DNA of 64,000 bases from Alteromonas naphthalenivorans (lineage in GTDB: Bacteria; Pseudomonadota; Gammaproteobacteria; Enterobacterales; Alteromonadaceae). Positions 12,527-27,869 of this stretch are shown piece by piece. How positions within the stretch are numbered: position 1 is the first letter of the stretch; each line of letters opens with the position of its first letter. The DNA lies in assembly GCF_000213655.1 (NCBI RefSeq), contig NC_015554.1:2604001-2668000 (forward strand), written 5' to 3'. The translations under genes and the position numbers were made by a program. Under the pieces are notes generated by a model. It was not told where the DNA came from, ran no database searches, and saw only the letters and a list, made by a program, of their open reading frames with translations.

Positions 12527-12811
12527 ATTGGACACACACTCCAATTACGTTTTCCACTGACTAAACCTAAATTGGACACACACTCATGTTCTGGCAAATT
12601 CCGACACTCGAAAACATTTTTAATTTAGGACAGACACTCCAATGATGTCTTCGGCTAACTGAATGCTAGAGTCTAAATTGTAGAGTCTAAATTGGACACA
12701 CACTCATATTCTGGCAAATTCAGACACTCGAAAACATTTTCAATTTAGGACAGGCACTCCAATGATGTCTTCGGCTAACTGAATGCTAGAGTCTAAATTG
12801 GACACACACTC
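12527..12811. repeat. Array of GGACACACACTC repeats (type A), with a 106-base tandem unit
   Basis: Five structured copies lie here. ATTGGACACACACTC occurs at 12527, 12571, 12691 and 12797, all in plus orientation. A 106-base unit starting with this motif is repeated: 12569-12688 (120 bases because a 14-base segment, TAGAGTCTAAATTG, is duplicated at its end), 12689-12794, then a third start at 12795. Each unit also carries a variant (GGACAGACACTCC at 12628, GGACAGGCACTCC at 12748). The two units differ at only a few bases. The array lies between the trp terminator and the 3' end of the next gene, whose stop codon is 16 bases beyond the last motif. Confidence 0.85.
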
Positions 12812-12826
12812 ATTTGAGCATTCTAG

Positions 12827-13291
12827 CTACAAAGTCACTTTATCGTGTTCGCCCATTTCATCAGGTGAAATGGTTTTGCCGGTCATCAATTTAAACATTC
12901 CTTTAAGGGATGGGTCAGCCTCCCAAATCTCGGCATCCGCCAAATTAAATCGCAGCATGAGTAAATTCGGATCGTCCTTACCTTTCTCGTACCAAGCTTC
13001 TACGCCGTTAGACCAATACTTGTCGATAATATCTTGACGAGTTTCCTGAACTAATGTTCCGCGAATACATGCGAACACGTCATGCCCTTTTGATGAAAAC
13101 TGTACCATGGCTTCGCCACCTTCAGCGATGCGATTATCTTTTGTGGTGTAAAACCAAAACTCGCTATTAGCATGCTTATCGAGCTGGGCACGCATTGGTT
13201 CAGCGTGCGTGTTTTTACTAGTAAGGCTTACCATTACATTTGGACTGCTAGACATAGCTTCCCACATTGCCGTTTTAATATCGTGCGACAT
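12827..13291 (-). CDS. Pyridoxamine 5'-phosphate oxidase-fold protein (general stress protein 26-like)
   Basis: The 154-residue protein has the split-barrel flavin-binding fold of the PNPOx-like family, specifically the general stress protein 26 group: SSPNVMVSLTSKNTHAEPMRAQLD, then FWFYTTKDNRIAEG, then VFACIRGTLVQETRQ. Such proteins bind FMN or related cofactors, and their physiological role is mostly unknown. It is a single gene between two repeat clusters; the last type A repeat ends only 15 bases past its stop codon. The ATG start at 13291 fits the family N-terminus. Confidence 0.85.
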   Translation of the reverse strand: MSHDIKTAMWEAMSSSPNVMVSLTSKNTHAEPMRAQLDKHANSEFWFYTTKDNRIAEGGEAMVQFSSKGHDVFACIRGTLVQETRQDIIDKYWSNGVEAWYEKGKDDPNLLMLRFNLADAEIWEADPSLKGMFKLMTGKTISPDEMGEHDKVTL

Positions 13292-13833
13292 ATTGCCTCC
13301 GTTGCATACATTTGAATAAACTTACCCAATTACAATTCACACTACGTGCCAGAAAAACCTCTAACCGCTACAGACCAAACTATGTAAGGGCTACATAGGC
13401 ATCACGTTCTGTAAACGAGTAAAACACTTGCTACTAAAACCTATAACCTATTCACTCTTGCAGTAAGTTTTTCACACCGACTAAGATTGGACACACACTT
13501 AAATTCAGAAGAAAAGTTAGATAATCACTTTAATTTTAGCCGCTTCATTCTTAGCCCTTGATATTGGACAGTCACTCAAGCACGAGTATCTTTTTCACCA
13601 AAAAAGTTATAATTGGAGTGTGTGTCCAATCGAGTACTTCATTGAATTACTTGTAAACTTAAGTGACTGTCCCACATTCATAACCTCATTAGTCCTTAAC
13701 ATCATTCTTGCTATCGCTTTATGTACACCTTCTATTTGGCAAGGTAGACTTACACAGATATTCAGTAATGGTTCAGCTCCGGTCTCTATACTAGGTTCCT
13801 ATCGGGCTTTGCCTCCTTTTTTGGTGAGGATAT
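13292..13833. other. 542-base intergenic region with repeats and the PepSY operon promoter area
   Basis: The first 190 bases (13292-13480) show no gene or structure I recognise. The middle holds the repeat cluster listed separately. The last 150 bases must contain the promoter of the PepSY/response-regulator operon, but I cannot pick -35 and -10 boxes with confidence. An open frame at 13620-13895 crosses the repeat and is not convincing as a gene. Confidence 0.6.
13486..13673. repeat. Mixed type A and type B repeat cluster in nested inverted orientation
   Basis: Four copies are present. Type A forward is at 13486 (ATTGGACACACACTT) and type B forward at 13563 (ATTGGACAGTCACTC). Type A reverse is at 13616 (GAGTGTGTGTCCAAT) and type B reverse at 13661 (AAGTGACTGTCCC). 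Forward A pairs with reverse A, and forward B with reverse B, giving two overlapping long-range inverted pairs. The reverse type A copy itself sits in a short palindrome, ATTGGA-N7-TCCAAT. Confidence 0.8.
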
Positions 13834-14109
13834 ATGGTGAATACACTTCGCGCTGTGGCTTTAGTGCTAACACTGTTTATGTGCAGTGGTGGTAGTGCCT
13901 TCGCGCAGCAGGAAAAAAGTGGTGAATTAAGCAAAAGCCAAGCTGTAGAACGTGCCCGTCAGGCAGAATCTGGACGTGTGCTTCGTGTAAGCCAGACTAA
14001 CCAAAAATACCGCGTTAAAGTTTTAAAGGAGTCGGGGCGAGTTGTTTCTGTTGATGTAGACAAGCGCTCTGGAAAAGTGAAGACCTCTAAGAAGAATTCA
14101 AAGGATTAA
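13834..14109 (+). CDS. Secreted PepSY-domain protein
   Basis: The 91-residue protein has a signal peptide (residues 1-24, ending SAFA) and a single PepSY-like domain: the SKSQAVERARQAESGRVLRV helix-strand unit and VVSVDVDKRSGKV hairpin. PepSY proteins often inhibit proteases or modulate sensor proteins in the periplasm. It ends one base before a response-regulator gene, so it is part of a three-gene operon with the regulator and kinase. In related operons the PepSY protein is thought to influence the sensor; that role here is inference. Confidence 0.8.
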   Translation: MVNTLRAVALVLTLFMCSGGSAFAQQEKSGELSKSQAVERARQAESGRVLRVSQTNQKYRVKVLKESGRVVSVDVDKRSGKVKTSKKNSKD

Positions 14110-14110
14110 C

Positions 14111-14785
14111 ATGCGGATACTCATTGCTGAAGACGACAGCCGCCTTCTAACCCAGCTTGATAGTCTATTACAGCAACACGGCTACAGTGTAGATTTGGCC
14201 GACAACGGCGAGCACGCGCTTTATCTACTCAATGAGTATGCTTACGACCTAGCTATTATTGATATCGGCCTACCTAAAATGGATGGCTTCGAAGTTATTC
14301 GAAATGCAAGGCAAGAAGACATACGCTGCCCCGTACTTATTTTAACCGCTCGTGATCGCTGGCAGGAAAAAGTTGAAGGTTTGGATGCAGGAGCGGATGA
14401 TTACCTTACCAAACCTTTTCACAATGAAGAATTGCTGGCAAGGGTTAAGGCACTGATTCGCCGCGCCTCTGGCCAAGCAAATCCTGTTATACAGTTCGGT
14501 CCTATCTCGCTGGACACGGTCGCTGAAGAAATCACTGTAAATGATGCCCCCCTCGAGTTGACTGCGTACGAATACAAAGTCATGGAATACTTAATGCTGA
14601 ACCCGCAAAAAGTAGTCTCGAAAACAGAGTTAACAGAGCATATTTACGATCAAGATTTTGATCTTGATAGTAACGTCATTGAAGTTTTTGTTGGCCGATT
14701 GCGTAAGAAGCTAGATCCAGAAAATAGCTTTAAACCCATTGAAACTCTACGCGGACGTGGGTATAGGATCAACCGCAATCTATGA
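14111..14785 (+). CDS. OmpR/PhoP-family response regulator
   Basis: This is a two-domain transcription factor. The receiver domain (residues 1-115) has acidic residues in AEDDS, phospho-acceptor Asp51 (IIDIGLPKMDG) and Lys101 (LTKPF). A winged-helix DNA-binding domain follows (residues 125-222, ending RGRGYRI). Closest in style to PhoP/QseB. It is flanked by the PepSY gene (1-base gap) and the kinase gene (4-base ATGA-type overlap), so the kinase is the likely partner. The stimulus is unknown; PhoP homologues respond to divalent cations or antimicrobial peptides. Confidence 0.9.
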   Translation: MRILIAEDDSRLLTQLDSLLQQHGYSVDLADNGEHALYLLNEYAYDLAIIDIGLPKMDGFEVIRNARQEDIRCPVLILTARDRWQEKVEGLDAGADDYLTKPFHNEELLARVKALIRRASGQANPVIQFGPISLDTVAEEITVNDAPLELTAYEYKVMEYLMLNPQKVVSKTELTEHIYDQDFDLDSNVIEVFVGRLRKKLDPENSFKPIETLRGRGYRINRNL

Positions 14786-16107
14786 AACAACTGTCGCTGA
14801 GAATAAGGAGCATTTTATTAGCGATGAGCGTACTTGCCCTATTTGCACCGCTTACTGTGGTTATTTTAGATGACGCCTATACCACAAGCTTGACCCAAGC
14901 CAAAATGAGTGAACTTAGACTCATGAACCTAGGGTTACTCTCGGCTTTCGAGCTAGATGGCGACATTCCCTTTATGCCCGAGATTTTATACGAGGAGCAA
15001 CTTAACTTGCCTGGCTCTGGCTACTTGGGTGTGATTGTTTTTCGCGGTCACGTAGTGTGGCAGTCGGCTTCAGCATTAGATTACACATTGCCTGCCCCGA
15101 ATTTAAACGTGAACGTGGGTAACGAGCTCTTTGTTGAATCGTATATAGCCAATTTCGACAATGATACCGATTATTTCGCCTACGCTTTTACGGCTGAATT
15201 TGCCTCAGAAAGCAACTTCGAGCCAGTTCGTTTTTATATTTTTAATAATAAACACCTGTTTAATGAAGAGCGCGAAACTTTTATATCGGTGGTGTGGCGT
15301 TGGTTGCTTATCTTATCCGGCGGTTTGCTTGTGTTAATAATTGTGGGTATCAGCCTTGTGCTAATGCCAGTAAGAAAGCTTATTAGCGAAATTTCACTTA
15401 CCTCTACCGGGCAGAAACAACAGCTTGACGCCCACTACCCCGTTGAATTTAACCCATTGAAACAGTCAATCAACGAACTGATTGAATCTGAATCTCAGCA
15501 GCGTGCTCGTTATAAAAACAGCTTAGGTGACCTTGCTCATAGTTTAAAAACACCACTGGCTGTAGCTTTAGGGGTTGAAAAACTTCCCAAACAAGCCGTT
15601 GAATCTTTAAATCAAATTGACCAAATTATTCAACGCCAATTAAAACGTGCTAGTGCTGGTAAGACGGGGTGGCAAGCGGCTATTCCTCTGTTACCTATCA
15701 CACAAAAAGTGGCTAACGCTATGGATAAGGTATATCAGCATAAGCAATTATCGATAACAATTGAAGCCATCAACAATGTCGCCATAAAAGCCGACGAAAC
15801 CGATATTATGGAAATGGTAGGTAATCTGTTAGATAACGCCTGTAAGGCTGCTGATTCAAAGGTATTAGTTGCACTGAAAAACGAAGGAAATTGGGCGGTT
15901 TTAACCATTGATGATGATGGCCCCGGCGTACCTTCAGATAAGAAACAAGCCCTGTTAGAGCGTGGAACCCGATTAGATACATACGCCGACGGGCAAGGCA
16001 TAGGCATGGCTCTAGTCAGCGACCTTATTGCCATCTACCAAGGTAAATTGCTTATCGAACGCGCGCCTATTGGCGGCGCTCGCTTTATTGTGAAGTTTCC
16101 GGTTTAA
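14782..16107 (+). CDS. PhoQ-like sensor histidine kinase
   Basis: This 441-residue membrane kinase has TM1 at about residues 10-30, a 135-residue periplasmic sensor region, and TM2 at about 172-195. The dimerisation/phospho-acceptor segment has His253 in DLAHSLKTPLAVAL, and the HATPase domain has LLDNACKAA (N box), DDGPGV (G1) and GQGIGMAL (G2). The ESESQQRARYKNSLGDLAHSLKTPL region is PhoQ-like. It follows and overlaps its response regulator. Its last three bases overlap the stop codon of the convergent permease gene, with no terminator between them. Confidence 0.9.
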   Translation: MKQLSLRIRSILLAMSVLALFAPLTVVILDDAYTTSLTQAKMSELRLMNLGLLSAFELDGDIPFMPEILYEEQLNLPGSGYLGVIVFRGHVVWQSASALDYTLPAPNLNVNVGNELFVESYIANFDNDTDYFAYAFTAEFASESNFEPVRFYIFNNKHLFNEERETFISVVWRWLLILSGGLLVLIIVGISLVLMPVRKLISEISLTSTGQKQQLDAHYPVEFNPLKQSINELIESESQQRARYKNSLGDLAHSLKTPLAVALGVEKLPKQAVESLNQIDQIIQRQLKRASAGKTGWQAAIPLLPITQKVANAMDKVYQHKQLSITIEAINNVAIKADETDIMEMVGNLLDNACKAADSKVLVALKNEGNWAVLTIDDDGPGVPSDKKQALLERGTRLDTYADGQGIGMALVSDLIAIYQGKLLIERAPIGGARFIVKFPV

Positions 16108-17147
16108 GCTTTACCTTTTTTATCGCCCGCGCTAGACAATAACACCGCAAGCCATTGGCTCTCCTCTCGAGACTCTAATGCTATTTTCACCACCATAGTA
16201 AGAGGTACAGAGAGTAGCATTCCCACCGTACCCAATAACCATCCCCAGAAGATTAAAGACAGAAAAACCACCAAAGTAGATAGCCCCATTCCTTTACCCA
16301 TCAGCCTTGGCTCTACCATGTTTCCCATAATTGTATTAACTAAAACAAAACCTAACGCCGCCATGCCTGCTGAAGCTAACCCATATTGAACAAAAGCAAT
16401 AAGTACTGCTGGTAAGGCAGCAATTATTGAGCCTATGTTAGGGATGAAGTTCAACATGAATGCCAATACCGCCCATAACAGGAAATGGTCTATTCCCATC
16501 ACATAAAGCCACGTACCGATAATTAACCCAGTACCCAAACTCACCACGGTTTTAATAGCCAAATAGCTATTTACAGAACGAATGAAACGGTCGATGTGTT
16601 TTAATTTCATGTCGGGGTCTGACAATGCAATGTGCAGTCGCTTTGGAATGCTGTCTGCCTCAAACAACATAAAAATAACCGTTAGCAATATAAGGAATAA
16701 GTTCGACAATACGCCGCCCATACCACTAATAAAATTGGTCGCTACCGACATCGCGGTGGCAGGATCTAAGTGGGTAGCAATCAGTTCTTGGTTAACGTTA
16801 ATATTGTATTGTGCGAGCTTTTCTATAATCCACGAAAATTCGGTATCGAGCTGTTCCCTATATTGTGGAAGATTTTCTCTAAATTCCGTCATAGACTGTC
16901 CTACTAGACCAGCAAGAAGAAATCCAAAGACTAAAATTATTAGTATTACTAAAGTAATAGAAAGCCATTTAGGTACACCAAAACGTCCGGTCCAATGAAT
17001 TATTGGGCTACACGCAATAGCGATAAATATTGATAAGAAAAAAGGTACCATAATCGTACTAGCGGACTTTATCCCCGCCATCACAACGACTAAACATGCG
17101 AGGACAATAAGTACTTTCGCTATGGGTGAGCGCAATTCCATGGACAT
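16104..17147 (-). CDS. AI-2E family transporter (PerM/YdiK-type permease)
   Basis: This 347-residue polytopic protein has about seven hydrophobic segments. Two or three lie in the first 85 residues, a long amphipathic central region follows, and the rest cluster from about residue 155 onward. The family signature region VMGIDHFLLWAVLAFMLNFIPNIGSIIAALPAVLIAF lies near residue 220; it is the conserved FNFIPxxG segment. Members export small molecules or ions (AI-2, cations); the substrate here is unknown. The gene is convergent with the histidine kinase and divergent from folX. Confidence 0.85.
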   Translation of the reverse strand: MSMELRSPIAKVLIVLACLVVVMAGIKSASTIMVPFFLSIFIAIACSPIIHWTGRFGVPKWLSITLVILIILVFGFLLAGLVGQSMTEFRENLPQYREQLDTEFSWIIEKLAQYNINVNQELIATHLDPATAMSVATNFISGMGGVLSNLFLILLTVIFMLFEADSIPKRLHIALSDPDMKLKHIDRFIRSVNSYLAIKTVVSLGTGLIIGTWLYVMGIDHFLLWAVLAFMLNFIPNIGSIIAALPAVLIAFVQYGLASAGMAALGFVLVNTIMGNMVEPRLMGKGMGLSTLVVFLSLIFWGWLLGTVGMLLSVPLTMVVKIALESREESQWLAVLLSSAGDKKGKA

Positions 17148-17222
17148 TTTTATGCTTCATTCCTAATAAAAAACTCAGACACTTTACAGTGACTTATACA
17201 TAACTACAAATACGAGAATACA

Positions 17223-17591
17223 ATGACCTTCAACTTAGCCACAATTAAAATTAAAAACCTGAGATTGAGAACTTATATTGGTATTAACGAAGATGAAATC
17301 ACCAACAAACAAGACGTTATCGTTAATGTGAAGATTGATTACGATGCCCAAAGAGCGACGGACAGCGACAATATGGAAGACGCGCTAAACTATAAGGTGA
17401 TTACCAAGGCCATTATCAAGCTGGTTGAGGACAACCGATTTTCATTGCTCGAAAAGCTCACCGCCGACGTATTAAGCTTGGCTGCTGAACACTCATCAGT
17501 ACGTTACGCCGAAGTTGAGGTGGATAAGCCGCATGCATTGCGATTTTCTGATTCGGTGTCGCTAACGCTTTCGTGCAATAAAACCGGCTGA
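17223..17591 (+). CDS. folX: Dihydroneopterin triphosphate 2'-epimerase FolX
   Basis: FolX epimerises dihydroneopterin triphosphate at C2' and belongs to the FolB fold. The 122-residue sequence matches E. coli FolX closely: [44 protein letters not shown] and [17 protein letters not shown]. The full-length FLLE-type active-site region and the HALR motif distinguish FolX from FolB. The neighbouring yfcH reproduces the E. coli folX-yfcH pair. Confidence 0.93.
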
Positions 17592-17649
17592 TTGTTTTTT
17601 GCGCGACATTTGATAAGCACTTTTATAGTCATTCTTATAGGCACATTGT

Positions 17650-18546
17650 ATGAAAATTTTAATGTCAGGCGGCACTGGCCTCATTGGTAGCGCGTTTATT
17701 GAAAAGTTTAAAGGCGAGCATCAGTTTACTGTCATAACAAGAGCCCCAAAAAAAGCTAAGCACCTGCTGGGTAGCAATGTAGCGTTTGTTTCAGATGTGA
17801 GTGACATTGATGATATTGGAATTTTCGATGCTATCATCAATTTGGCTGGCGAACCCATTGCCGACAAACGTTGGACAGACACGCAAAAGCAAAGAATTTG
17901 CGATAGTCGATGGGATATTACTTCTAAACTTGTCGCGAAAATCAATAGTGCCGGCACCCCACCACCTGTATTTATTTCTGGTTCGGCCATCGGTTTTTAT
18001 GGCAGTAAAGGTAGTGTTGATGTTACCGAGCAAACGCCCCCTCATGAAGAGTTCACACACGACCTTTGTGCCAAATGGGAGGCTATCGCTACCTCTGTCG
18101 CCCGCGACGAAACGCGGGTTTGTACGCTAAGAACCGGTGTAGTGTTAGCTGAAAATGGCGGAGCACTAGAGAAAATGGCACTGCCCTTCAAACTAGGATT
18201 AGGCGGCAAAATAGGAAATGGCGAACAGTATTTATCGTGGATCCACATTGAGGACATGGTGTCAGCTATTGCTTACCTACTTGAACATGATAGTTGCCAT
18301 GGGCCGTTCAACCTTACGGCTCCATCTCCTACAACTAATAAAGACTTCTCCCACACATTAGCGGCAACGCTTTCAAGGCCCTGCTTGTTTACCGTTCCAG
18401 GCTTTGTATTAAAAATAGCGATGGGTGAATCGTCTGATATGATTTTAAAAGGGCAAAAGGTGCTCCCTGAAAAGCTCGTAACCTCAGGCTACACGTTTGC
18501 TTACCCTACTTTGCAAGGGGCGTTGGATGCAATTTATAAGCACTGA
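17650..18546 (+). CDS. yfcH: TIGR01777-family NAD(P)-dependent epimerase YfcH
   Basis: This is a 298-residue extended short-chain dehydrogenase. The NAD(P)-binding GGTGLIGSAF motif lies at residues 7-16, NLAGEPIADKRW near residue 75, GSAIGFYG near residue 111 and the C-terminal DUF1731 segment from about residue 245 (GFVLKIAMGESSDMILKGQKVLP). The physiological substrate is not known. It follows folX by 58 bases. A repeat cluster begins 20 bases after its stop codon and may take the place of a terminator. Confidence 0.92.
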   Translation: MKILMSGGTGLIGSAFIEKFKGEHQFTVITRAPKKAKHLLGSNVAFVSDVSDIDDIGIFDAIINLAGEPIADKRWTDTQKQRICDSRWDITSKLVAKINSAGTPPPVFISGSAIGFYGSKGSVDVTEQTPPHEEFTHDLCAKWEAIATSVARDETRVCTLRTGVVLAENGGALEKMALPFKLGLGGKIGNGEQYLSWIHIEDMVSAIAYLLEHDSCHGPFNLTAPSPTTNKDFSHTLAATLSRPCLFTVPGFVLKIAMGESSDMILKGQKVLPEKLVTSGYTFAYPTLQGALDAIYKH

Positions 18547-18566
18547 CGTTCGGAAGCAAATACAGG

Positions 18567-18768
18567 ATTGGACACACACTCGAACTTGAACCAACCGGCT
18601 TTATGGGACACAGAACGAAATTGGACACACACTCAAAGTTAAGTGTGTGTCCAACATTTAATCGCAACATTTAATCGAGTGACTCGTACGACTATTTGTA
18701 CCGACTTCAGATACTCACTTGAGTGACTGTCCGATTTATTTTTGTACTTATTTTCGAGTGACTGTCCC
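18567..18768. repeat. Type A inverted pair and two type B repeats between yfcH and ybbP
   Basis: Type A copies lie at 18567 (forward), 18620 (forward) and 18641 (reverse). The last two form a perfect 13-base-pair hairpin, TTGGACACACACT/AGTGTGTGTCCAA, with an 8-base loop (18621-18654). Type B reverse copies (GAGTGACTGTCC) lie at 18721 and 18756, and a shortened one (GAGTGACTCG) near 18678. A 13-base direct repeat (CAACATTTAATCG) sits at about 18653-18678. The region lies between the convergent genes yfcH and ybbP, a typical place for REP-like elements. Confidence 0.85.
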
Positions 18769-18837
18769 TTTCATCCCGCTTTCATCTCCCTTACGCTTTA
18801 AAACGGTCTTTCCTAACTTTCAACAGCTATACATCCT

Positions 18838-21360
18838 TTAGACCATCTTCCTAAGCAGTGCCGAAGTATTTAAGGTAAGTAACCGCCAGCAGCCAATTGC
18901 ACCTAAAGCACCCACCACAATTGCCCCGACAATCGGTGCAATTACCCAATACTCTAAGTGAAGACTTGCAGTCATTTGAAACACGTTGGTTTGCAGCATA
19001 AACAAGCTGAGCTCATTGGCGAGCGCTGCCATGAAACCTGCAACAACACCTATGATGACAAACTCGAACACCACGCTTTTGCGAATTAAACTGCCTTTCG
19101 CCCCAAGCGTTCTTAAAATAGCCAGCTCTTGTCGTCTTTCATCCATGCTAGCTTGAACCTGGGCTATTAACACTAAACTGCCTGCTACAAGCACCAGCAC
19201 TAAGATAAACTCAATGGCCACCGACACTTGATTAACAATATCTCTTAGCTGATTAATTCGCGCATCAACATCGAACATGGTGATAGACGCAAATGGCTTT
19301 AACAACGTGGTTAGTTGTGATTTCTGCGCTTCGGGCAAATAAAAACTGGTGATGTAGGTTGGATTGAACGCCGCCATGGCCTCAGGTTGAATAACAAAGA
19401 AAAAGTTAGGCTGCATGGTTTGCCAGTTCACTTTTCTAAAACTTGTTACCTTAGTTTTAACGATTTCACTGCCCACATTGAATGTGAGCATATCGCCTAA
19501 TTCAATACCAAGTCGCTCGCCTACATCGGTTTCAACTGAAACAGCGAATACGCCTTCGTCTAATGCATCAGGGTTGTCACCATGCCATGTACCACTGGTA
19601 ATCTCGTTCTCTTTTTGTAACGAATTACTCCAAGTTAAATTCGCTTCACGTCCAAGTCCTTGTCTACCTTCAGTATTTGAATCTTCCTCTTTAGATACTT
19701 CGGTATTTACACTGTCATCATTCACTGCAACGAAGCGCCCTCGTATTACAGGATAGAACTCTTCGATGGTAATTCCGTTTGATTTGAAGTGTGTGTCCAA
19801 TTCTGTTTTTTGATCGCCAGTGATATTAATCAAAAAGTAATTGGGTGTACCTTCTGGCAACTGAGAGCGCCACTGCGATACCATGTCGTTGCGCATAACC
19901 AATACAACTAGCAACAACATGGTAGTGACTGAAAAACTAATCAGCTGAACACTATTTTCCATTGAACGGCGTTTAATTCGCGCCCAAGCAAGCTGCCAAG
20001 GCCCCATTTTTCCTGAGCCGAATTTACGTCCCGCTGCAATCAGCAAAAAGGTTGCGCCTAGCAGCCCCGCGACTAAAACCACGCCAGAGCCAAACAAAAT
20101 AAGGCTGATCATCAAATCTTGGCTATAAATCCACATCAAGAGAAATATCGCACCGCCTGAGGCCACATACTGAATGGTCCGAGAACGTAAATTAGTGCTT
20201 AAATCACGCCTTAGCACACGCAGTGGAGGAATTGAAAACAACTGCATCAATGGATAAAGCGAGAATAATAACGAGCAGGTTGCCCCTGTGAAAACAGCGA
20301 TTAGCACTGGCCGCCAATGCCAAATAGATAACGCCACATCAACTTGTTCAGCAACTAACCACACCACAACTTGCTGGCCAATGAAGCCCATTATTAATCC
20401 AATAATAATGCCTAGCCCAGTAATAAATAGAATTTGAAGAAGATAGATACGGCGAATGACTTGCTTTGTCGCACCGAGTGTTTTCATGATAGCGACAGGG
20501 TCGAAATGACGTTGACTGTAACGCTGGGCTGCCACCGCAATGGAAACCGCTGCAAGCACTATGGCAAGTAAACTCGCCAATAAAAAATACCGCTCAGCAC
20601 TCGCTACCGAACGTCCAATGGCCGATTCGTCATCTTCAACGGTACGCCAATTATGTAAGTCATCTTGCAAGTTAGGGCTGAGCCAGTCGTAAAAATTACT
20701 AATAGCACTCCTTTCGCCTTCAAAATAGCCCACGTAACGTGCCCGACTGCCAGGCCCGGTTATAGCCGTTGCATCCAAATCGGACAGTCTAATCAAAGCG
20801 ATTGGTTCGGTGTTAAATACACTGAACCCTGCATCAGGTATATCAACCAACACTTTGGTTACCGTGAATTCAGCATCGCCTATTTCAATACTGTCTCCCA
20901 AACTAAGCTTCAGAGTTTGAAACAACAGAGACTGCAGCCACACTTCGCCGGGCTTGGGCAAATCTGTTGCCGCTTCTTTTTGTCCAAAAGGCACATCAGT
21001 AATATTAACCGTGCCCTTCAGTGGATAATTCTCGTTTACAGCCCTAAGGTCCACCAATGACATTTCGTCACGATGAAAGACCATCGACCGAGTAGTCACC
21101 TGCTTTGCCGTGTTAAGCCCCTCATCTCGAGCCTGCTGCAACCAAGTATCATTAATGGGTGTATCAGAGCGTAACTGTGCATCAGCTGCGATAAAAGCCG
21201 CTGAACGCTCTTTTAGCGCACCTTGCAACCGCTCACTAAATAACGACAGCGACAATACCGCGCCTACCGACAATACAATTGCCAACAAGATAATGGTAAG
21301 CTCTCCGCGCTTCGCCTCATGCCGAAACAATCGCCATGCCAAGGTCGATGTCATGCTCAT
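18838..21360 (-). CDS. ybbP: ABC transporter permease YbbP (FtsX/MacB superfamily)
   Basis: This 840-residue membrane protein has an N-terminal TM helix (about residues 20-42), a large periplasmic region, and two FtsX-type permease domains with several TM helices near residues 255-350 and 395-490. A final trio follows after about residue 710. It pairs with the ATPase YbbA. The YbbA-YbbP system is of the mechanotransmission type rather than a pore, by family knowledge. Position, length and motifs (YPVIRGRF near residue 532) match E. coli YbbP. A copy of the type A repeat lies in frame at about residues 518-524 (ELDTHFK). Alignment with E. coli from memory suggests no length change there. Confidence 0.9.
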   Translation of the reverse strand: MSMTSTLAWRLFRHEAKRGELTIILLAIVLSVGAVLSLSLFSERLQGALKERSAAFIAADAQLRSDTPINDTWLQQARDEGLNTAKQVTTRSMVFHRDEMSLVDLRAVNENYPLKGTVNITDVPFGQKEAATDLPKPGEVWLQSLLFQTLKLSLGDSIEIGDAEFTVTKVLVDIPDAGFSVFNTEPIALIRLSDLDATAITGPGSRARYVGYFEGERSAISNFYDWLSPNLQDDLHNWRTVEDDESAIGRSVASAERYFLLASLLAIVLAAVSIAVAAQRYSQRHFDPVAIMKTLGATKQVIRRIYLLQILFITGLGIIIGLIMGFIGQQVVVWLVAEQVDVALSIWHWRPVLIAVFTGATCSLLFSLYPLMQLFSIPPLRVLRRDLSTNLRSRTIQYVASGGAIFLLMWIYSQDLMISLILFGSGVVLVAGLLGATFLLIAAGRKFGSGKMGPWQLAWARIKRRSMENSVQLISFSVTTMLLLVVLVMRNDMVSQWRSQLPEGTPNYFLINITGDQKTELDTHFKSNGITIEEFYPVIRGRFVAVNDDSVNTEVSKEEDSNTEGRQGLGREANLTWSNSLQKENEITSGTWHGDNPDALDEGVFAVSVETDVGERLGIELGDMLTFNVGSEIVKTKVTSFRKVNWQTMQPNFFFVIQPEAMAAFNPTYITSFYLPEAQKSQLTTLLKPFASITMFDVDARINQLRDIVNQVSVAIEFILVLVLVAGSLVLIAQVQASMDERRQELAILRTLGAKGSLIRKSVVFEFVIIGVVAGFMAALANELSLFMLQTNVFQMTASLHLEYWVIAPIVGAIVVGALGAIGCWRLLTLNTSALLRKMV
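19786..19803. repeat. Type A repeat core inside ybbP
   Basis: GAAGTGTGTGTCCAATTC on the plus strand matches the dispersed type A motif over about 14-15 contiguous bases. On the coding strand it reads GAATTGGACACACACTTC and encodes ELDTHF. It is a single copy without neighbours. Confidence 0.55.
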
Positions 21361-21375
21361 TTATAGGGCCTCCAT

Positions 21376-22074
21376 CTAAACAGCCTCTGAGCGCTGACGA
21401 GGCGATACTGGGGTCGACTCTGTCAAAACACCCGCCTGCATGGTTAACTGCCTGTCACACTTAGCGGCAAGCTCGTTATCGTGGGTAACAAGTACCAATG
21501 TTGTACCTTTCTCTCGATTGAGCGCGAAAAGGAGCTCTTCGACTTTGTGGCTGTTTGTTGCATCCAAGTTTCCAGTAGGCTCATCGGCAAATAAAATTTT
21601 AGGTGAAGTAATAAAAGCCCGCGCAATAGCAACTCGCTGTTGTTCACCACCTGAAAGTTGATTTGGGTAATGACTCGCGCGATGCCCAATGCCTACTTGT
21701 TCAAGAATCTTACTCGCCATCTGCTTAGGGTTATCTAAACCCGCAATTTCGGCTGGCAGCATTACGTTTTCAATAGCGGTTAAGCTTTGCACTAACATAA
21801 AGCTTTGAAAAATAAACCCTACTTTTTGCCCCCGAAGTACAGCGCGAGCCTCTTCATCCATGGTATGCAGTGGTTCACCATCAAGGTGAATTTCGCCTTT
21901 GGAAACTTCATCTAGGCCGGCCAACAGCCCCAACAGAGTAGATTTTCCTGAACCTGACGCACCAATAATGGCAACGGACTCACCGGACTTGACTTCAAAA
22001 GAGATAGGATGAAGGATCTCAAGCTTACCTTCGCTCGTATTTACAGACTTAGTTACTTTGGATGTTTTTATCAT
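21376..22074 (-). CDS. ybbA: ABC transporter ATP-binding protein YbbA
   Basis: This 232-residue ABC ATPase of the MacB/LolD class has Walker A GASGSGKST near residue 37, Q-loop QSFMLVQSLTA near residue 91, signature LSGGEQQR near residue 141, Walker B ILFADEPTG near residue 160 and the H-loop VTHD. It precedes ybbP by 15 bases and is divergent from tesA (17 bases between starts), exactly as in E. coli. The tesA-ybbA-ybbP linkage suggests envelope lipid or lipoprotein handling, but the substrate is not established. Confidence 0.92.
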   Translation of the reverse strand: MIKTSKVTKSVNTSEGKLEILHPISFEVKSGESVAIIGASGSGKSTLLGLLAGLDEVSKGEIHLDGEPLHTMDEEARAVLRGQKVGFIFQSFMLVQSLTAIENVMLPAEIAGLDNPKQMASKILEQVGIGHRASHYPNQLSGGEQQRVAIARAFITSPKILFADEPTGNLDATNSHKVEELLFALNREKGTTLVLVTHDNELAAKCDRQLTMQAGVLTESTPVSPRQRSEAV

Positions 22075-22091
22075 ATAGGGGTCATTAATTC

Positions 22092-22748
22092 GTGATTTAT
22101 CGTTTTCGCAGCGCCGTTTTGTTCACACTGCTTTTATTAATACCGTTATCTGCATTATCAGATCAGACCGATACCATCGTCCCCAATAATTCAGCTAAAT
22201 TACTGATTCTAGGTGACAGCCTATCTGCTGCTTATGGGTTAGATCAACAAGAAGGTTGGGTGAGTTTGTTACAAAAACGCTGGCGTGACGAGAATATATC
22301 GATCGATATTGTAAATGCTGCGGTAAGCGGTGAGACCACTGATGGCGGTTTAGCTAGGCTTCCGAGGTTAATTGAACAACATACGCCAAGCCATATTTTA
22401 GTAGAACTCGGTGGTAATGATGGCCTGCAAGGGCACAGTATCAGTAAGATTAGGAACAACTTGAGCGCAATTGTTAGCATAGCAAAATCGGACAATACAA
22501 CCGTTTTTGTGCAAGACATGCAGATACCCACTAATTACGGTAAACGCTATACACAAATGTTTAGCGACACTTTTGATACCGTGTCAGAGCAACATGAAGT
22601 TACAAAAATTCCTTTTTTTCTTGAGGACATAGCACTTCAAAAAGACTTGATGCAACGTGATGGTATTCACCCTAACGCAAAAGCTCAGCCTATGATTGTC
22701 GAATTTATGTTCGAAAAACTGACGCCTTTGATCATGAATAATCAATAA
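22092..22748 (+). CDS. tesA: Arylesterase / acyl-CoA thioesterase I / lysophospholipase L1 TesA
   Basis: This is a periplasmic SGNH-family esterase of 218 residues with a signal peptide (residues 1-23). The four SGNH blocks are visible: GDSLSAAYG with Ser43, the Gly at VSGETTDGG, GGNDGL with Asn, and DGIHPNA with the catalytic Asp and His. Known TesA enzymes hydrolyse acyl-CoA, lysophospholipids and aryl esters. The start is a GTG; its promoter region overlaps that of ybbA on the opposite strand. Confidence 0.93.
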   Translation: MIYRFRSAVLFTLLLLIPLSALSDQTDTIVPNNSAKLLILGDSLSAAYGLDQQEGWVSLLQKRWRDENISIDIVNAAVSGETTDGGLARLPRLIEQHTPSHILVELGGNDGLQGHSISKIRNNLSAIVSIAKSDNTTVFVQDMQIPTNYGKRYTQMFSDTFDTVSEQHEVTKIPFFLEDIALQKDLMQRDGIHPNAKAQPMIVEFMFEKLTPLIMNNQ

Positions 22749-22816
22749 CGTGTGCTATGCTCTTAAACTTAGAATGTAAATGCGAAAACAAGTAACAACT
22801 TAATTTGGAGATTGTT

Positions 22817-23002
22817 ATGGACGTTTCATCATCAACGTCAACGCCAGTATCGAATGTACTTCAGTCGCCACAACAAGAACCTCAACGACAGGTTCAACAA
22901 CGTGCTAGTCAGCAAACTGAAGTAAGTGCGCCCCAACAGACGCAACAAGCGGCTCCTGCCTCTGACAGTAGAGTGGGTTCCCGTATCGACACTTACGTTT
23001 AA
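22817..23002 (+). CDS. Small Gln/Ser/Pro-rich hypothetical protein
   Basis: I do not recognise this 61-residue protein. It is low in complexity: Ser/Thr/Pro at the start, then a Gln-rich middle (QQEPQRQVQQRASQQ), ending SRVGSRIDTYV. There is no signal peptide, TM segment or cysteine. The ATG at 22817 is chosen because GGAG (22807-22810) is well placed. The C-terminal segment GSRIDTYV looks less biased and may be the conserved part. Short proteins of this kind, with a disordered body and conserved tail, occur in Alteromonadales. It lies 80 bases upstream of the RAYT gene, in the same direction. Confidence 0.6.
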   Translation: MDVSSSTSTPVSNVLQSPQQEPQRQVQQRASQQTEVSAPQQTQQAAPASDSRVGSRIDTYV

Positions 23003-23081
23003 TTGAAAACCCGCCCTAAGCACAGTAGTTTATTACCGCATTTCCAGCATAATTATTTCCGAACCACTCGGAGATATGGAA

Positions 23082-24062
23082 ATGCCGCTACCTCGTTACA
23101 AGCAAGTCAATTTAGAAGTTACGCCCTACTATCACTGCACATCACGTTGTGTGCGGCAATCTTTCCTTTGTGGCGTTGATGCTATTACTGGCAAAAACTA
23201 CAACCATCGCAGACAGTGGATTGTAGATAGACTTCATAGGCTCACGAAAACCTTCGCGATTGACTTGTGTGCCTATGCAGTAATGCACAATCATACCCAT
23301 GTTGTGGTGCATATAGCGAAAGCGAGAGCTGAACACTGGAGCATGGATGAAGTGTTACTTCGGTGGAAGTCTTTTTATCGCTGCCCCTCATTAGTCCAAC
23401 GGTATCTCGATGAAGAAAGTCGAGGTTCACTTTCTGAAGTAGAGCTTCAAAAAGTTGAAGAATTAAGCGAAATTTATCGGCATCGGCTATATAGCGTAAG
23501 TTGGTTTATGCGCCTGCTTAATGAATTTATTGCGCGAAAAGCTAACAAAGAAGATGAATGTACTGGATATTTTTGGGAGCGCCGATTTAAGAGCCAAGCA
23601 ATATTGTCGGAGAATGCGCTAGCGGTAACCATGGCCTATACCGATTTAAACCCCATCCGAGCCGGTATAGCCAAAACATCAGAACAATCAAACTTTACCA
23701 GTATTCAATACAGAATTAACGCATTGAAAGTAAACAAAGTACCTGCTCGGCTTATGCCATTTAATGACCAAGTTCCGGTTAATGAAATAAGCCTACCTTT
23801 CAAATTGAGCGACTACTTAGTGCTTGTAGATGAAACCGGTCGCGTTATGCGACCAGACAAGAAGGGTGCTATCCCTCAGAAAATGAAGCCTATCTTGGAC
23901 AGACTTAAACTCTCTAATAATTCATGGATTACCCTTTCAACCAAACTAGAAAGGAAATTTACAGGCCCTATTGGCTCTGCTGAGCGAATTTGCGTGTTTG
24001 CATCAGCTTGCGAATATGGCAGAAAACCCAACATAGCTAATGCCAGAAGATATCTTCAATAG
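23082..24062 (+). CDS. REP-associated tyrosine transposase (Y1/HUH family, RAYT)
   Basis: This is a domesticated IS200/IS605-like Y1 transposase. The HUH-type metal-binding pair is in AYAVMHNHTHVVVHI (near residues 71-73) and the likely catalytic Tyr is in AYTDLNPIRAGI (near residue 186). The context FWERRFKSQAIL is typical of RAYTs. Known RAYTs cut and process REP hairpins scattered in the same genome. The length (326 residues) is on the long side, with about 130 residues after the Tyr of unclear function. I prefer the ATG at 23082 because GGAG (23070-23073) is 8 bases away; the ATG at 23076 is too close. There are no IS ends or target duplications, and no type A/B repeats directly flank it; the nearest lie about 1.1 kb downstream. 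Confidence 0.85.
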   Translation: MPLPRYKQVNLEVTPYYHCTSRCVRQSFLCGVDAITGKNYNHRRQWIVDRLHRLTKTFAIDLCAYAVMHNHTHVVVHIAKARAEHWSMDEVLLRWKSFYRCPSLVQRYLDEESRGSLSEVELQKVEELSEIYRHRLYSVSWFMRLLNEFIARKANKEDECTGYFWERRFKSQAILSENALAVTMAYTDLNPIRAGIAKTSEQSNFTSIQYRINALKVNKVPARLMPFNDQVPVNEISLPFKLSDYLVLVDETGRVMRPDKKGAIPQKMKPILDRLKLSNNSWITLSTKLERKFTGPIGSAERICVFASACEYGRKPNIANARRYLQ

Positions 24063-24128
24063 ACTTTTAGGTTTTAGTTTTTTTAAGCGACATCAACAAA
24101 ACACCACGGTTGATATGTTTTAAATAGT

Positions 24129-25067
24129 CTAGTGTGAGGCTTGCCTGGCTAATACATCTACAATTTCTTGTGATTTTGATAATCGCCTGATGTCGTTAAA
24201 CAATAATTCAGCTTCAGGGTACTGCCTTTTTAAATAGCCACACCACTGCTTTATTCGGTTTGGGTAGTATTTGCCCTTATCGCCGTAGATTTCGTAGCCC
24301 GAATAGCGGATAAGCAACGCGGCCACATCTTCCCATGCCATAGGCGGTTCGCCATCACGAATACACCTTGCTAGGTTTGGCATGGCAAGTGCCCCCCTAC
24401 CTACCATTAAGTTGGTGCAGGCGGATTGCTCCTGGCAACGCTTGCCGTCTTCTTCATTCCATATTTCGCCATTGGCCACTAATGGAATATCGGTATTTTG
24501 CTTTATTTTAGCGATCCAATCCCAGTAAGCTGGCGGCTTATAGCCTTCCGTCTTTGTTCTGGCGTGCACAACTAGCTCAGATGCGCCCGCTTCGGTTATA
24601 GCGATAGCATTTTCTACGGCAAGAGATTTATCTTCAAATCCCAACCGAATTTTAGCTGATACAGGTTGTGAGGCTGGTACGGCATCACGAACCGCTTTTA
24701 CGATGTCATACAAAGCTTGGGTTTCTTTTAACAGAACCGCCCCGCCTTTACTTTTATTGACGGTTTTTGCAGGGCAGCCAAAATTTAAATCTACACCCGG
24801 TGAACCCAAATCAACCGCAGTGTGAGCATTTTCTGCCAGCCATTGTGGATGCTGCCCTAATAATTGCACGCGCACAGGCACGCCGTTAGGGGTTTTGCCG
24901 CCATTATGTAGTTCGGGACATAGTTTGTAGAAGGTTTTATTGGGAAGTTTTTGATCAACTACTCTAACGAATTCAGTTACACACTGATCGAACCCACCCA
25001 CATGAGTAAGCATATCTCGCATTAAATGGTCGACAACACCTTCCATAGGCGCCAGCATGATTTTCAT
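24129..25067 (-). CDS. dusC: tRNA-dihydrouridine(16) synthase DusC
   Basis: DusC is an FMN-dependent reductase of uridine 16 in the tRNA D-loop. The TIM barrel begins LAPMEGVVDHLMRD. The DusC-specific segment TEFVRVVDQKLPNKTFYKLCPEL distinguishes it from DusA and DusB. Catalytic Cys98 is in NFGCPAKTV, followed by VHARTKTEGY and VANGEIWN. The 312-residue length and near line-by-line similarity to E. coli DusC support the call. It is a single gene, convergent with the RAYT gene (66 bases between stops). Confidence 0.94.
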   Translation of the reverse strand: MKIMLAPMEGVVDHLMRDMLTHVGGFDQCVTEFVRVVDQKLPNKTFYKLCPELHNGGKTPNGVPVRVQLLGQHPQWLAENAHTAVDLGSPGVDLNFGCPAKTVNKSKGGAVLLKETQALYDIVKAVRDAVPASQPVSAKIRLGFEDKSLAVENAIAITEAGASELVVHARTKTEGYKPPAYWDWIAKIKQNTDIPLVANGEIWNEEDGKRCQEQSACTNLMVGRGALAMPNLARCIRDGEPPMAWEDVAALLIRYSGYEIYGDKGKYYPNRIKQWCGYLKRQYPEAELLFNDIRRLSKSQEIVDVLARQASH

Positions 25068-25178
25068 AACTAAAATTTCGCTAAAACTGAGTGATTAAAA
25101 TGGGCGCGAGAGTGTAGCAAAGTGCGGGTTATATGACCATGCTATTTAAGTGTCGATAAGAATTTGTGTACGTTTTTT

Positions 25179-25282
25179 TGACTGTCCGATTTTATACACA
25201 TTGATGCGTTGCTTGAGAGAAGTTTGAGTGACTGTCCAAGATTTAAGTTTGTGTCTAACCTTAACTTGAGTGTGTGTCCAAC
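25179..25282. repeat. Type B, B and A repeats, the last forming the 3' end of a small gene
   Basis: All are in reverse orientation: TGACTGTCCGAT at 25179, GAGTGACTGTCCAA at 25226 and GAGTGTGTGTCCAAC at 25268. A decayed copy (AGTTTGTGTCTAAC) is at 25246. The type A copy at 25268-25282 lies inside the coding region of the DUF1289 gene. Confidence 0.8.
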
Positions 25283-26798: not shown

Positions 26799-26874
26799 TG
26801 GCGTCCCCAAGGGGATTCGAACCCCTGTTACCGCCGTGAAAGGGCGGTGTCCTAGGCCTCTAGACGATGGGGAC
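26799..26874 (-). tRNA. tRNA-Glu (UUC), copy 4 of the operon
   Basis: This 76-base gene on the minus strand starts GTCCCCATCGTCTAGAGG. The anticodon loop is CCTTTCACG with anticodon TTC, the T-arm GGTTCGAATCC is intact, and CCA is encoded. It is the last of four identical copies in a tRNA-Ala-(tRNA-Glu)4 transcript beside gltX, which charges tRNA-Glu. Confidence 0.97.
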
Positions 26875-27029
26875 AAAAAATCTTCTTTCAAAAGCTACGC
26901 TTTTGAGATTTTTTGTAAGGCGAATCGAGCTAAGCGACATTACCTTACAAAAACAAATTTTTGTCGCTGATAGTAACTTTTCAATTACTACCGGCCTATT
27001 TCACAGTTACGGACTGTGACACCGGAAAA
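26875..27029 (-). repeat. tRNA-Glu operon spacer with CAAAAGC hairpin
   Basis: This transcribed spacer shares most of its sequence with the other two inter-tRNA-Glu spacers, including CACAGTTACGGACTGTG (27002-27018) and the AAAACAAATTTTTGTCGC block. Directly after the tRNA it carries the hairpin CAAAAGC-TAC-GCTTTTG, unlike the two inner spacers. The same hairpin recurs after the promoter-proximal copy (27588 onward). Confidence 0.75.
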
Positions 27030-27105
27030 TGGCGTCCCCAAGGGGATTCGAACCCCTGTTACCGCCGTGAAAGGGCGGTGTCCTAGGCCTCTAGACGATG
27101 GGGAC
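27030..27105 (-). tRNA. tRNA-Glu (UUC), copy 3
   Basis: This tRNA gene is identical in sequence to the other three tRNA-Glu genes here, with anticodon TTC and encoded CCA. The repeat period to the next copy is 240 bases, showing amplification by tandem duplication of tRNA plus spacer. Confidence 0.97.
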
Positions 27106-27269
27106 AGAAATTTTGCTAGTGAAGTAAAACTTCACTAAATTTCTGTAAGGAGAGGTGAGCTCTGCGAGCTGAGCGACATTACCCTTACAAAAACAAATTT
27201 TTGTCGCTGATAGTAACTTTCTAATTACTACCGGCCTATTTCACAGTTACGGACTGTGACACCGGAAAA
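27106..27269 (-). repeat. tRNA-Glu operon spacer with AGTGAAGT hairpin
   Basis: Directly after the tRNA is GAAATTT-TGCT-AGTGAAGT-AAA-ACTTCACT-AAATTTC, a two-part stem. The conserved block GTAAGGAGAGGTGAGCTC and the CACAGT/ACTGTG hairpin shared by all spacers follow. The stems probably guide endonucleolytic separation of the tRNAs. Confidence 0.75.
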
Positions 27270-27345
27270 TGGCGTCCCCAAGGGGATTCGAACCCCTGTT
27301 ACCGCCGTGAAAGGGCGGTGTCCTAGGCCTCTAGACGATGGGGAC
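27270..27345 (-). tRNA. tRNA-Glu (UUC), copy 2
   Basis: This copy is identical to the other tRNA-Glu genes of the operon, with anticodon TTC, CCA encoded and 76 bases. Confidence 0.97.
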
Positions 27346-27511
27346 AGAAATTTTGCTAGTGAAGTAACACTTCACTAAATTTCTGTAAGGAGAGGTGAGC
27401 TCCGCGAACCGAACGACCTTATTACCTTACAAAAACAAATTTTTGTCGCTGATAGTAACTTTCTAATTACTACCGGCCTATTTCACAGTTACGGACTGTG
27501 ACACCGGAAAA
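27346..27511 (-). repeat. tRNA-Glu operon spacer with AGTGAAGT hairpin (second copy)
   Basis: It is nearly identical to the spacer at 27106-27269, with a loop change (AAA to ACA) and a few differences in the GAGCTC region. Confidence 0.75.
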
Positions 27512-27587
27512 TGGCGTCCCCAAGGGGATTCGAACCCCTGTTACCGCCGTGAAAGGGCGGTGTCCTAGGCCTCTAGACGATGGGGAC
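27512..27587 (-). tRNA. tRNA-Glu (UUC), copy 1 (promoter-proximal)
   Basis: This copy is identical to the other three tRNA-Glu genes. It is separated from tRNA-Ala by 206 bases (27588-27793) that contain the CAAAAGC/GCTTTTG hairpin and two copies of the GTAAGG...GAGCTC spacer block, but no gene. Confidence 0.97.
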
Positions 27588-27793
27588 AAAAAATCTTCTT
27601 TCAAAAGCTACGCTTTTGAGATTTTTTGTAAGGCGAAGCGAGCTCTGCGAGCTGAGCGACATTATCCTTACAATCAATCATTTTTGTAAGGAGAGGTGAG
27701 CTCCGCGAACCGAACGACCTCATCCTTACAAAACAATTTATGCCCGAAGGTAAAACCTTCAGCCTAAACCGCAATATAACTTGCAGTTAGATT

Positions 27794-27869
27794 TGGTGGA
27801 GCCAGGCGGGATCGAACCGCCGACCTCCTGCATGCCATGCAGGCGCTCTCCCAGCTGAGCTATGGCCCC
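27794..27869 (-). tRNA. tRNA-Ala (GGC)
   Basis: This 76-base gene starts GGGGCCATAGCTCAGC. The anticodon stem-loop CTGCATGGCATGCAG places GGC at the anticodon, the T-arm is GGTTCGATCC, and CCA is encoded. It is the first gene of the tRNA operon downstream of gltX, as alaX/alaW are near gltX in E. coli. Confidence 0.97.

Follow-up and report, generated by a model that had tools for sequence, protein, structure and literature searches.

Are the short repeats that cluster around a RAYT gene (REP-associated tyrosine transposase; REP, repetitive extragenic palindrome) of Alteromonas naphthalenivorans the sequences that the encoded protein recognises? The stretch in question, hereafter the window, comprises 64,000 nucleotides (NC_015554.1, positions 2,604,001–2,668,000), with the RAYT gene at 23082–24062 of the window; RAYTs elsewhere are named below by their chromosomal position in kb. 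A preliminary description of the window, made from its letters only, had noticed a short motif in intergenic clusters and had linked it to the RAYT by inference. Extending the analysis to the complete genome, its relatives and RAYT loci of other genera, we consider the repeats to be probable cognate recognition sequences of this RAYT, amplified near their gene, and assign this reading a probability of roughly 0.75. It draws on the bracketing of RAYT genes by related words, the locality of the repeats, the parallel words of paralogues, the convergence of paired copies, the distribution of dialects on the RAYT tree and the empty addresses of genomes without the RAYT. Arrays inside genes that differ between relatives, and a best fold match to a TnpAREP–REP hairpin complex, point the same way.

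With at most one mismatch, the window contains 13 matches to GGACACACACTC and seven to GGACAGTCACTC, against 0.09 and 0.08 expected from shuffled sequences. One site is common to both words, leaving 19 distinct sites, of which one lies at 44111 and 18 inside 12527–25282, in the four clusters first described (12.5–12.8, 13.5–13.7, 18.6–18.8 and 25.2–25.3 kb). Both motif types named in the preliminary description are present, but there are not exactly two: the central dinucleotide of the window copies is CA, GT, GA or GG, and CC and others occur at loci elsewhere. The placement of the clusters, said to be mostly behind gene 3′ ends, is likewise mixed. Judged by open reading frames (ORFs) of at least 80 amino acids, the clusters at 12.5 and 18.6 kb have a 3′ end on either side, the one at 13.5 kb has a 5′ end on either side, and the one at 25.2 kb has one of each.

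The consensus of 100 distinct copies of the focal family from five genomes is TTGGACA[CA/GT/GA]CACT[C/T]AA, in which only the dinucleotide and the edges are informative, as the copies were retrieved with GGACANNCACT. It contains no GTAG/GTGG head. General palindromy of single copies was rejected, because the flanks of these 100 copies showed no excess of self-complementarity (arm score 1.79, compared with 1.96, standard deviation 0.08, in shuffled pairings). Among six stretches folded, all three convergent pairs fold well (18617–18660, −13.9 kcal/mol, z −5.3; 13560–13632, z −4.3; a pair near the 2,306-kb RAYT, z −3.5), whereas one same-direction pair and two single copies did not, the single copies folding no better than shuffles. 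The earlier statement that single copies are not palindromic and only pairs fold therefore holds for most copies; the exceptions, judged by eye, are the ATTGGA/TCCAAT arms of the copies at 12530 and 13616.

The family had been called dispersed, which it is not. Of 23 exact copies of GGACANNCACTC in the 4.97-Mb genome, 19 lie between 2,556,902 and 2,629,279, a region of 73 kb around the RAYT at 2,627,076. The four copies outside equal the whole-genome count of the reversed control pattern; such chance-level counts elsewhere, which the preliminary description would have taken as a sign against the family, were thus literally found, and we read them as confinement near the RAYT, not as evidence that the link is absent. 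In place of the genome-wide REP class with two half-site flavours that had been envisaged, we find several dialects of one frame, RGACANNCAY, of which the focal family is a locally confined member.

Confinement recurs in relatives that carry an orthologue of the focal RAYT. In six other genomes, the copies within 100 kb of the orthologue numbered 21/21 (G021), 21/23 (G022), 18/20 (G024), 14/21 (G041), 13/15 (G047) and 19/22 (G058). Together with the window's own genome, these seven, chosen for having one or two contigs, place 125 of 145 copies within that distance, compared with 4.3% expected. Five further orthologue genomes with full motif positions gave 19/21 (G001), 19/23 (G010), 6/9 (G012), 11/16 (G014) and 0/4 (G007), so that the total is 180 of 218 for the 12 of 26 focal-orthologue genomes in which motif positions were complete; the others provided counts or stretches only.

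The abundance of the motif follows the presence of the RAYT. We classed 59 genomes of the genus by their best E value, taking 1e-115 or better as a focal orthologue and excluding from the classes one genome with a weak RAYT match (G051; E 4e-4, 0 copies). The median number of copies of a 12-base probe was 19 in the 26 genomes with a focal orthologue, 10 in the 25 with other RAYTs only and 2 in the seven without a RAYT match. The focal RAYT has a GDSL-lipase-like gene on one side and a Dus gene on the other, an address that is kept in 13 of 13 relatives compared, its Dus side being about 3 kb longer in several of them. Six RAYT-less genomes retain the syntenic address without the RAYT and contain 0, 1, 0, 2, 0 and 0 copies of GGACANNCAC per 40 kb, compared with 2 to 48 in twelve RAYT-bearing regions. 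Equal abundance in relatives lacking the RAYT, the observation that would have spoken against the proposed link from the start, is therefore not seen.

Related words also accompany related RAYTs in other genera. The 80 loci analysed encode RAYT relatives of many gammaproteobacteria, among them Alteromonas, Colwellia, Shewanella, Marinomonas, Microbulbifer and Thiodiazotropha. RGACANNCAY matched 420 times in these loci, whereas 40 permuted patterns gave a mean of 172 and a maximum of 274. It reached 1.27 copies per kb in the kb adjoining the gene, against 0.12–0.18 per kb at 6–10 kb, and its strand was biased towards the gene on both sides (159 + and 62 − on the left; 47 + and 152 − on the right). 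In a scan that presupposed no motif, GACACCCA was the most inward-biased of all 8-mers in the flanking kb, pointing inward at 47 of the 80 loci and outward at three. The form NGMCANNCAY points inward on both sides within 1 kb at 59 of 77 loci, compared with 6% of 1500 control placements, and outward at one; for the stricter RGACANNCAY the inward figure is 41 of 77 against 1.1% of control placements. The scan of inward versus outward 8-mers replaced a count of 10-mers common to the 700-bp flanks on either side of the RAYT, a measure that discriminated poorly (inverted at 54/78 loci vs 345/760 controls). When k-mers were ranked locus by locus, the top 9-mer contained GACA/TGTC at 26 of 80 loci, a count restricted to those letters and leaving aside GCCACCCA-type words.

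Neighbouring copies follow an orientation rule. Among adjacent pairs at most 150 bp apart in 17 regions, 106 were ++, 106 −−, 55 convergent and four divergent; the inner gap was 10–29 bp in 28 of the 55 convergent pairs. These counts include orthologous copies and are not independent. The window's genome alone has ten convergent pairs and one divergent.

Paralogues on the same chromosome have words of their own. The genome encodes five intact RAYTs, four of them 50–53% identical to the focal one, and two fragments. Local k-mers near the 2,306-kb RAYT contain AAGACACCCATG, and those near the 472- and 1,186-kb RAYTs contain a GGACACCCAC core with differing edges. Genome-wide, 17 of 26 copies of AGACACCCAYG lie within 30 kb of the 2,306-kb RAYT and 23 within 30 kb of some RAYT; of 32 copies of GGACACCCAC, nine are this close to the 472-kb and ten to the 1,186-kb RAYT, and 24 to some RAYT. 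Both words are absent from the 75 kb on either side of the focal RAYT. The focal and 2,306-kb dialects are therefore distinct, whereas those of the 472- and 1,186-kb RAYTs share a core.

The chromosome holds a few further features of this kind. The two RAYT fragments (584461–584744 and 589276–589476) are 58% identical over about 50–60 residues, and each has a copy of AGACAGGCAT some 40–100 bp upstream; they are perhaps decayed RAYTs of another dialect. Between 680.7 and 727.9 kb, a few GGACACCCAC/GGACACTCAC copies have no RAYT match nearby and are possibly remnants of a lost RAYT. The strongest local word near the 1,186-kb RAYT (1137–1237 kb, L051–L055) is an unrelated GCCGAAGCC-type repeat with 17–19 overlapping 10-mer copies, and some tRNA words also rank in the local k-mer list around the focal RAYT.

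Dialects are distributed along the RAYT tree rather than at random. The tree comprised 108 RAYTs, left from 114 loci after five with internal stops or short frames and one duplicate were dropped; 20 of the 108 loci had no majority dinucleotide, leaving 88. Mapping the majority dinucleotide onto these 88 rows required 20 changes, compared with a mean of 42.2 and a minimum of 37 in 200 shuffles. For the 34 Alteromonas rows alone, the figures were eight changes against a mean of 17.2 and a minimum of 12. In loci of the Colwellia/Shewanella type, among them L088, L129 and L155, GACA has C in place of its A (TGCCACCCAT or AGCCACCCAT), so that even the supposed core varies with RAYT clade. The link between RAYT and repeats is borne out by association across loci, genomes and RAYT-less addresses.

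What kind of RAYT is this? The protein has 328 residues (326 from the second ATG); most of the 120 relatives listed have 322–336, some 308–316. Its Y motif, YTDLNP at 188, reads YVDLNP in 18 of 25 alignment rows; WE stands at 167–168 and TS at 208–209, and 113 residues separate H75 from Y188. The HuH histidines and the tyrosine are invariant in the 25-sequence alignment. Subclass 2.3 of the TnpAY1 transposases, as characterised in excerpts of Quentin et al., 2018 (PMC6006769), has a median length of 325 residues, the motifs NHYH and YVDLNP, WE, a downstream TS and a median HuH-to-Y distance of 110, and occurs as several divergent copies per genome in Alteromonadales/Chromatiales. Several divergent copies are present here as well, and the named relatives belong to Alteromonas, Colwellia, Shewanella and Ectothiorhodospiraceae. 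By length, Y motif, WE, TS, HuH–Y spacing and divergent copies, the predicted protein fits subclass 2.3. Given the crowding of the repeats around the focal RAYT, a domesticated transposase gene, and the related words beside related RAYTs, the repeats very likely belong to a RAYT group thought to be without any.

The NCBIfam model for REP-associated tyrosine transposases matched the protein below its cut-off (38 of 80 bits); Pfam gave no match for the focal protein at its default threshold, whereas at 0.01 all 25 of 25 members of the alignment matched Y1_Tnp weakly. Solved structures, searched by sequence, returned no match for the protein. Its AlphaFold2 model (mean predicted local distance difference test score 85.5) had a single fold match under E 0.001, namely 4er8, E. 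coli TnpAREP with a REP hairpin (E 1.2e-4; template-modelling score 0.34 by query and 0.64 by target). IS200/IS605 structures such as 2ec2, 2xm3 and 2a6m were lower-ranked, weak matches.

How the arrays change was assessed by comparing relatives. Motif copies are 96–99% identical in four relatives, compared with 56–76% for flanks 6–25 bases away when gaps are counted as differences, or 74–89% without gap columns. These figures use 21, 21, 13 and 16 of 26 copies, those unalignable or with more than five gap columns being dropped; they include orthologous copies, and anchoring by blastn gives preference to conserved sequence. G058 lacks the array at 2,556.9 kb. Duplications of a larger unit occur in the window (12574/12628 and 12694/12748) and at 467.5–467.9 kb.

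Two protein-coding genes near paralogues carry the motif in frame. The motif encodes DTH linker repeats in a molybdopterin-binding dehydrogenase whose gene lies 1 kb from the 1,186-kb RAYT (L053:6057–8360). Six genomes, including the window's, have two to eight motif-frame copies in this gene, with seven reiterated linker copies in G046 (L257), and nine more distant relatives have none in the linker. A phytase-domain protein is encoded some 20 kb from the 2,306-kb RAYT (L057:8394–10667, ~2,284.4–2,286.7 kb); here the motif in frame encodes NKTP and NETP/RETP linker repeats. In six more distant relatives, copies occur elsewhere, mostly in the DTH reading, in varying numbers and some in another frame or strand. 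For the two genes, the comparison took in 15 of 30 and 12 of 30 loci. The in-gene copies look less like a fixed regulatory site than like the product of proliferation into tolerant linkers.

The conservation of motif cores relative to their flanks in syntenic relatives could also be explained by selection. The RAYT might now act only as a sequence-specific DNA-binding or domain-organising protein, with the repeats as local binding sites under selection. The conserved address in the 13 relatives compared would agree with this, as would the extra, exposed domains described for the subclass in excerpts of PMC6006769. We nevertheless consider this explanation unlikely: the reiterated in-frame linker repeats vary between relatives in a manner suggestive of proliferation, RAYT genes themselves are bracketed by the motif, and the catalytic histidines and tyrosine have remained invariant.

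Improbable, in our estimation, is growth of the arrays by slippage or recombination independent of the RAYT, which would merely have brought the first copies to the locus. The larger-unit duplications and unit-size indels inside arrays are what such a process would produce, but it poorly explains why clusters stand apart by tens of kb in intergenic DNA that is unrelated, the convergent-pair rule, or a core that is conserved while its flanks diverge. A chromosome-organisation signal of a replication region, such as matS in the terminus, might by chance surround the RAYT. A single dense region of 73 kb on a 4.97-Mb chromosome was counted in favour of this idea, as was GAGTGACTGTCC, which we take to resemble matS faintly. 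A matS-type signal marks one chromosomal region that is defined by replication, independently of any RAYT. Here, related words surround several RAYTs of the same chromosome, and in relatives such regions go with the RAYT, being missing or nearly empty at RAYT-less addresses; on these data the idea was rejected and retains a negligible probability. Chance or low-complexity sequence, suggested by the CA repeat in the core of the first motif type, is refuted by the shuffled expectations for the window and by the GT, GA and CC dialects, which are not simple repeats.

Several observations weigh against the repeats being recognition sequences amplified by the RAYT. As the preliminary description had already stated, no copy lies within 1 kb of the focal gene, yet inward copies do so at the 59 other loci mentioned above; the copies nearest to the focal gene are 1.1 kb to the right and 3.3 kb to the left, so that an inverted pair brackets the focal gene only loosely. 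Two genomes with divergent orthologues, G007 (60% identity) and G029 (66%), have few copies (four and two by the 12-base probe) and low counts of GGACANNCAC among RAYT-bearing regions (7 and 2 per 40 kb, respectively). The loose frame RGACANNCAY shows no whole-genome enrichment (406 matches vs 408 for the reversed control) and is therefore informative only locally. Near the 2,859-kb RAYT, TGAGACACCCAC is weakly enriched, with four copies against three elsewhere in the sample, and the 472- and 1,186-kb paralogues differ only at the edges of their common GGACACCCAC core. Inherited flanking DNA of close orthologues partly accounts for the clustering of dialects on the tree. In three clusters aligned, most differences between relatives are whole units gained or lost within an array, which recombination can produce without a RAYT. 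Finally, the HuH letters of the focal protein are NHTH (NHLH, NHIH, NHTH and NHSH in relatives), and differ from the NHYH given for subclass 2.3 in the published table.

The features of the window that enter this argument are collected in Table 1. In addition, the window contains four tandem tRNA-Glu (ttc) genes about 240 bp apart and a tRNA-Ala (ggc) gene at 26799–27869; the pattern of BLAST matches suggests that this tandem repeat varies among relatives.

Table 1. Motif copies and the RAYT gene in the window (positions counted from its first nucleotide).
Feature	Position	Strand	Remark
RAYT gene, TnpAY1 subclass 2.3-like	23082..24062	+	ATG at 23076 or 23082, stop 24062
motif GGACACACACTC	12530..12541	+	window motif scan
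motif GGACACACACTC	12574..12585	+	window motif scan
motif GGACAGACACTC	12628..12639	+	matched by both word scans
motif GGACACACACTC	12694..12705	+	within unit duplicated 120 bp apart (12574/12628 and 12694/12748)
motif GGACAGGCACTC	12748..12759	+	window motif scan
motif GGACACACACTC	12800..12811	+	window motif scan
motif GGACACACACTT	13489..13500	+	window motif scan
motif GGACAGTCACTC	13566..13577	+	left half of convergent pair with 13616–13627; motif scan and folding
motif GGACACACACTC	13616..13627	-	window motif scan
motif GGACAGTCACTT	13661..13672	-	window motif scan
motif-frame copy GGACAGACAC	17873..17882	+	inside ORF 17650–18546
motif GGACACACACTC	18570..18581	+	window motif scan
convergent motif pair (18623 +, 18641 -)	18623..18652	.	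13-bp hairpin, -13.9 kcal/mol, z -5.3
motif GGACAGTCACTC	18721..18732	-	window motif scan
motif GGACAGTCACTC	18756..18767	-	window motif scan
motif GGACACACACTT	19787..19798	-	inside FtsX-like permease gene 18838–21360
incomplete copy GGACAGTCA	25179..25187	-	
motif GGACAGTCACTC	25226..25237	-	window motif scan
motif GGACACACACTC	25268..25279	-	window motif scan

If the repeats are indeed the targets of the RAYT, the protein, as an HuH/Y1 endonuclease, would bind either the motif in single-stranded form or the hairpin that a convergent pair forms, and would nick and rejoin it as E. coli TnpAREP does with REPs. The convergent pair would be the moving unit, nicking and rejoining seeding new convergent units. 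Such a RAYT may act mainly near its own gene, and repeat and protein would therefore drift together. Ordinary tandem duplication or host recombination probably adds copies inside the arrays.

A more far-reaching proposal, which we advance tentatively and hold to be somewhat less probable than its converse, is that RAYTs of subclass 2.3 are cis-acting, each rarely working further than some tens of kb from its own gene. Paralogues would then split the chromosome into territories with drifting words, and the arrays, including those in frame, would be a fossil record of the reach of a bacterial nuclease along the chromosome. Both the GGACACCCAC core common to two paralogues and the lack of any 12-base probe copy near the G007 orthologue lower its probability. 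For recognition as such, one of the larger subclasses among domesticated Y1 transposases, published without cognate repeats, gains a concrete sequence target with testable variants, which opens its biochemistry to study. Several RAYTs with partly different words in one genome, together with relatives whose addresses are empty, constitute a natural experiment, bearing on whether the repeats are made by RAYTs and on the reason that some of them remain close to the gene.

How does this system compare with those already known? It has the HuH/Y1 catalytic core in common with IS200/IS605 elements; those occur as near-identical copies at varying addresses, whereas the paralogues here have diverged to 50–53% identity and the focal address is syntenic in 13 relatives. 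REPINs consist of two REPs and are spread through the genome. Like the convergent pairs described here, they present two inverted copies as one hairpin unit tied to a RAYT (PMC8049555, in part); they differ in that our hairpin is formed by two mostly non-palindromic words and stays near its RAYT. REPtrons, as covered in excerpts of Nunvar et al., 2010 (PMC2817692), resemble our loci in that a RAYT stands between two inverted copies of a repeat that is specific to it and coevolves with it. For a Thauera and three marine gammaproteobacteria, the same excerpts report REPs accumulating near rayt genes over a span of no more than two hundred kb. A canonical REP has a GT(A/G)G head and a palindrome in each single copy (PMC2817692), whereas the word found here has no head, most single copies do not fold and convergent pairs do.

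For subclasses 2.1 and 2.3, the excerpts of PMC6006769 state that the authors found no REP-like sequence. Their search was automatic, for hairpins tagged GT[AG]G that had a copy no more than 1 kb away, and also by eye; a search for such hairpins would miss a non-palindromic word. The published absence near subclass 2.3 genes is not matched by our data, in which inward repeats stand on both sides at 59 of 77 loci, and we found no description of subclass 2.3 repeats in the open-licence literature searched. A close parallel comes from the sister subclass. Di Nocera et al., 2013 (PMC3733652) named Y1 transposases associated with terminal inverted repeats (TIRs), many of which carry a GGGGWSAS motif, and 20 of 26 of these enzymes fall into TnpAY1 subclass 2.1, in which subclass 2.3 is rooted (PMC6006769). 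Their TIRtrons (TIRYT) likewise have a Y1 gene flanked by TIRs of which only some are self-complementary; some TIRs form moderately abundant repeat families, and GGGGWSAS can contain GGACA. They differ in subclass (2.3-like here), in the RGACANNCAY frame with its several dialects and in the strong locality of our arrays, and the main text of PMC3733652 names no Alteromonas, Colwellia or Marinomonas and contains neither GGACA nor GACACCCA. The repeats are closer to these sister-subclass TIRs than to canonical GTAG REPs. Because RAYT-proximal REPs and sister-subclass TIR repeats have both been reported, the kind of system is known; new relative to the open-licence literature searched are the word, its dialects, the subclass and the presence of several territories in one chromosome.

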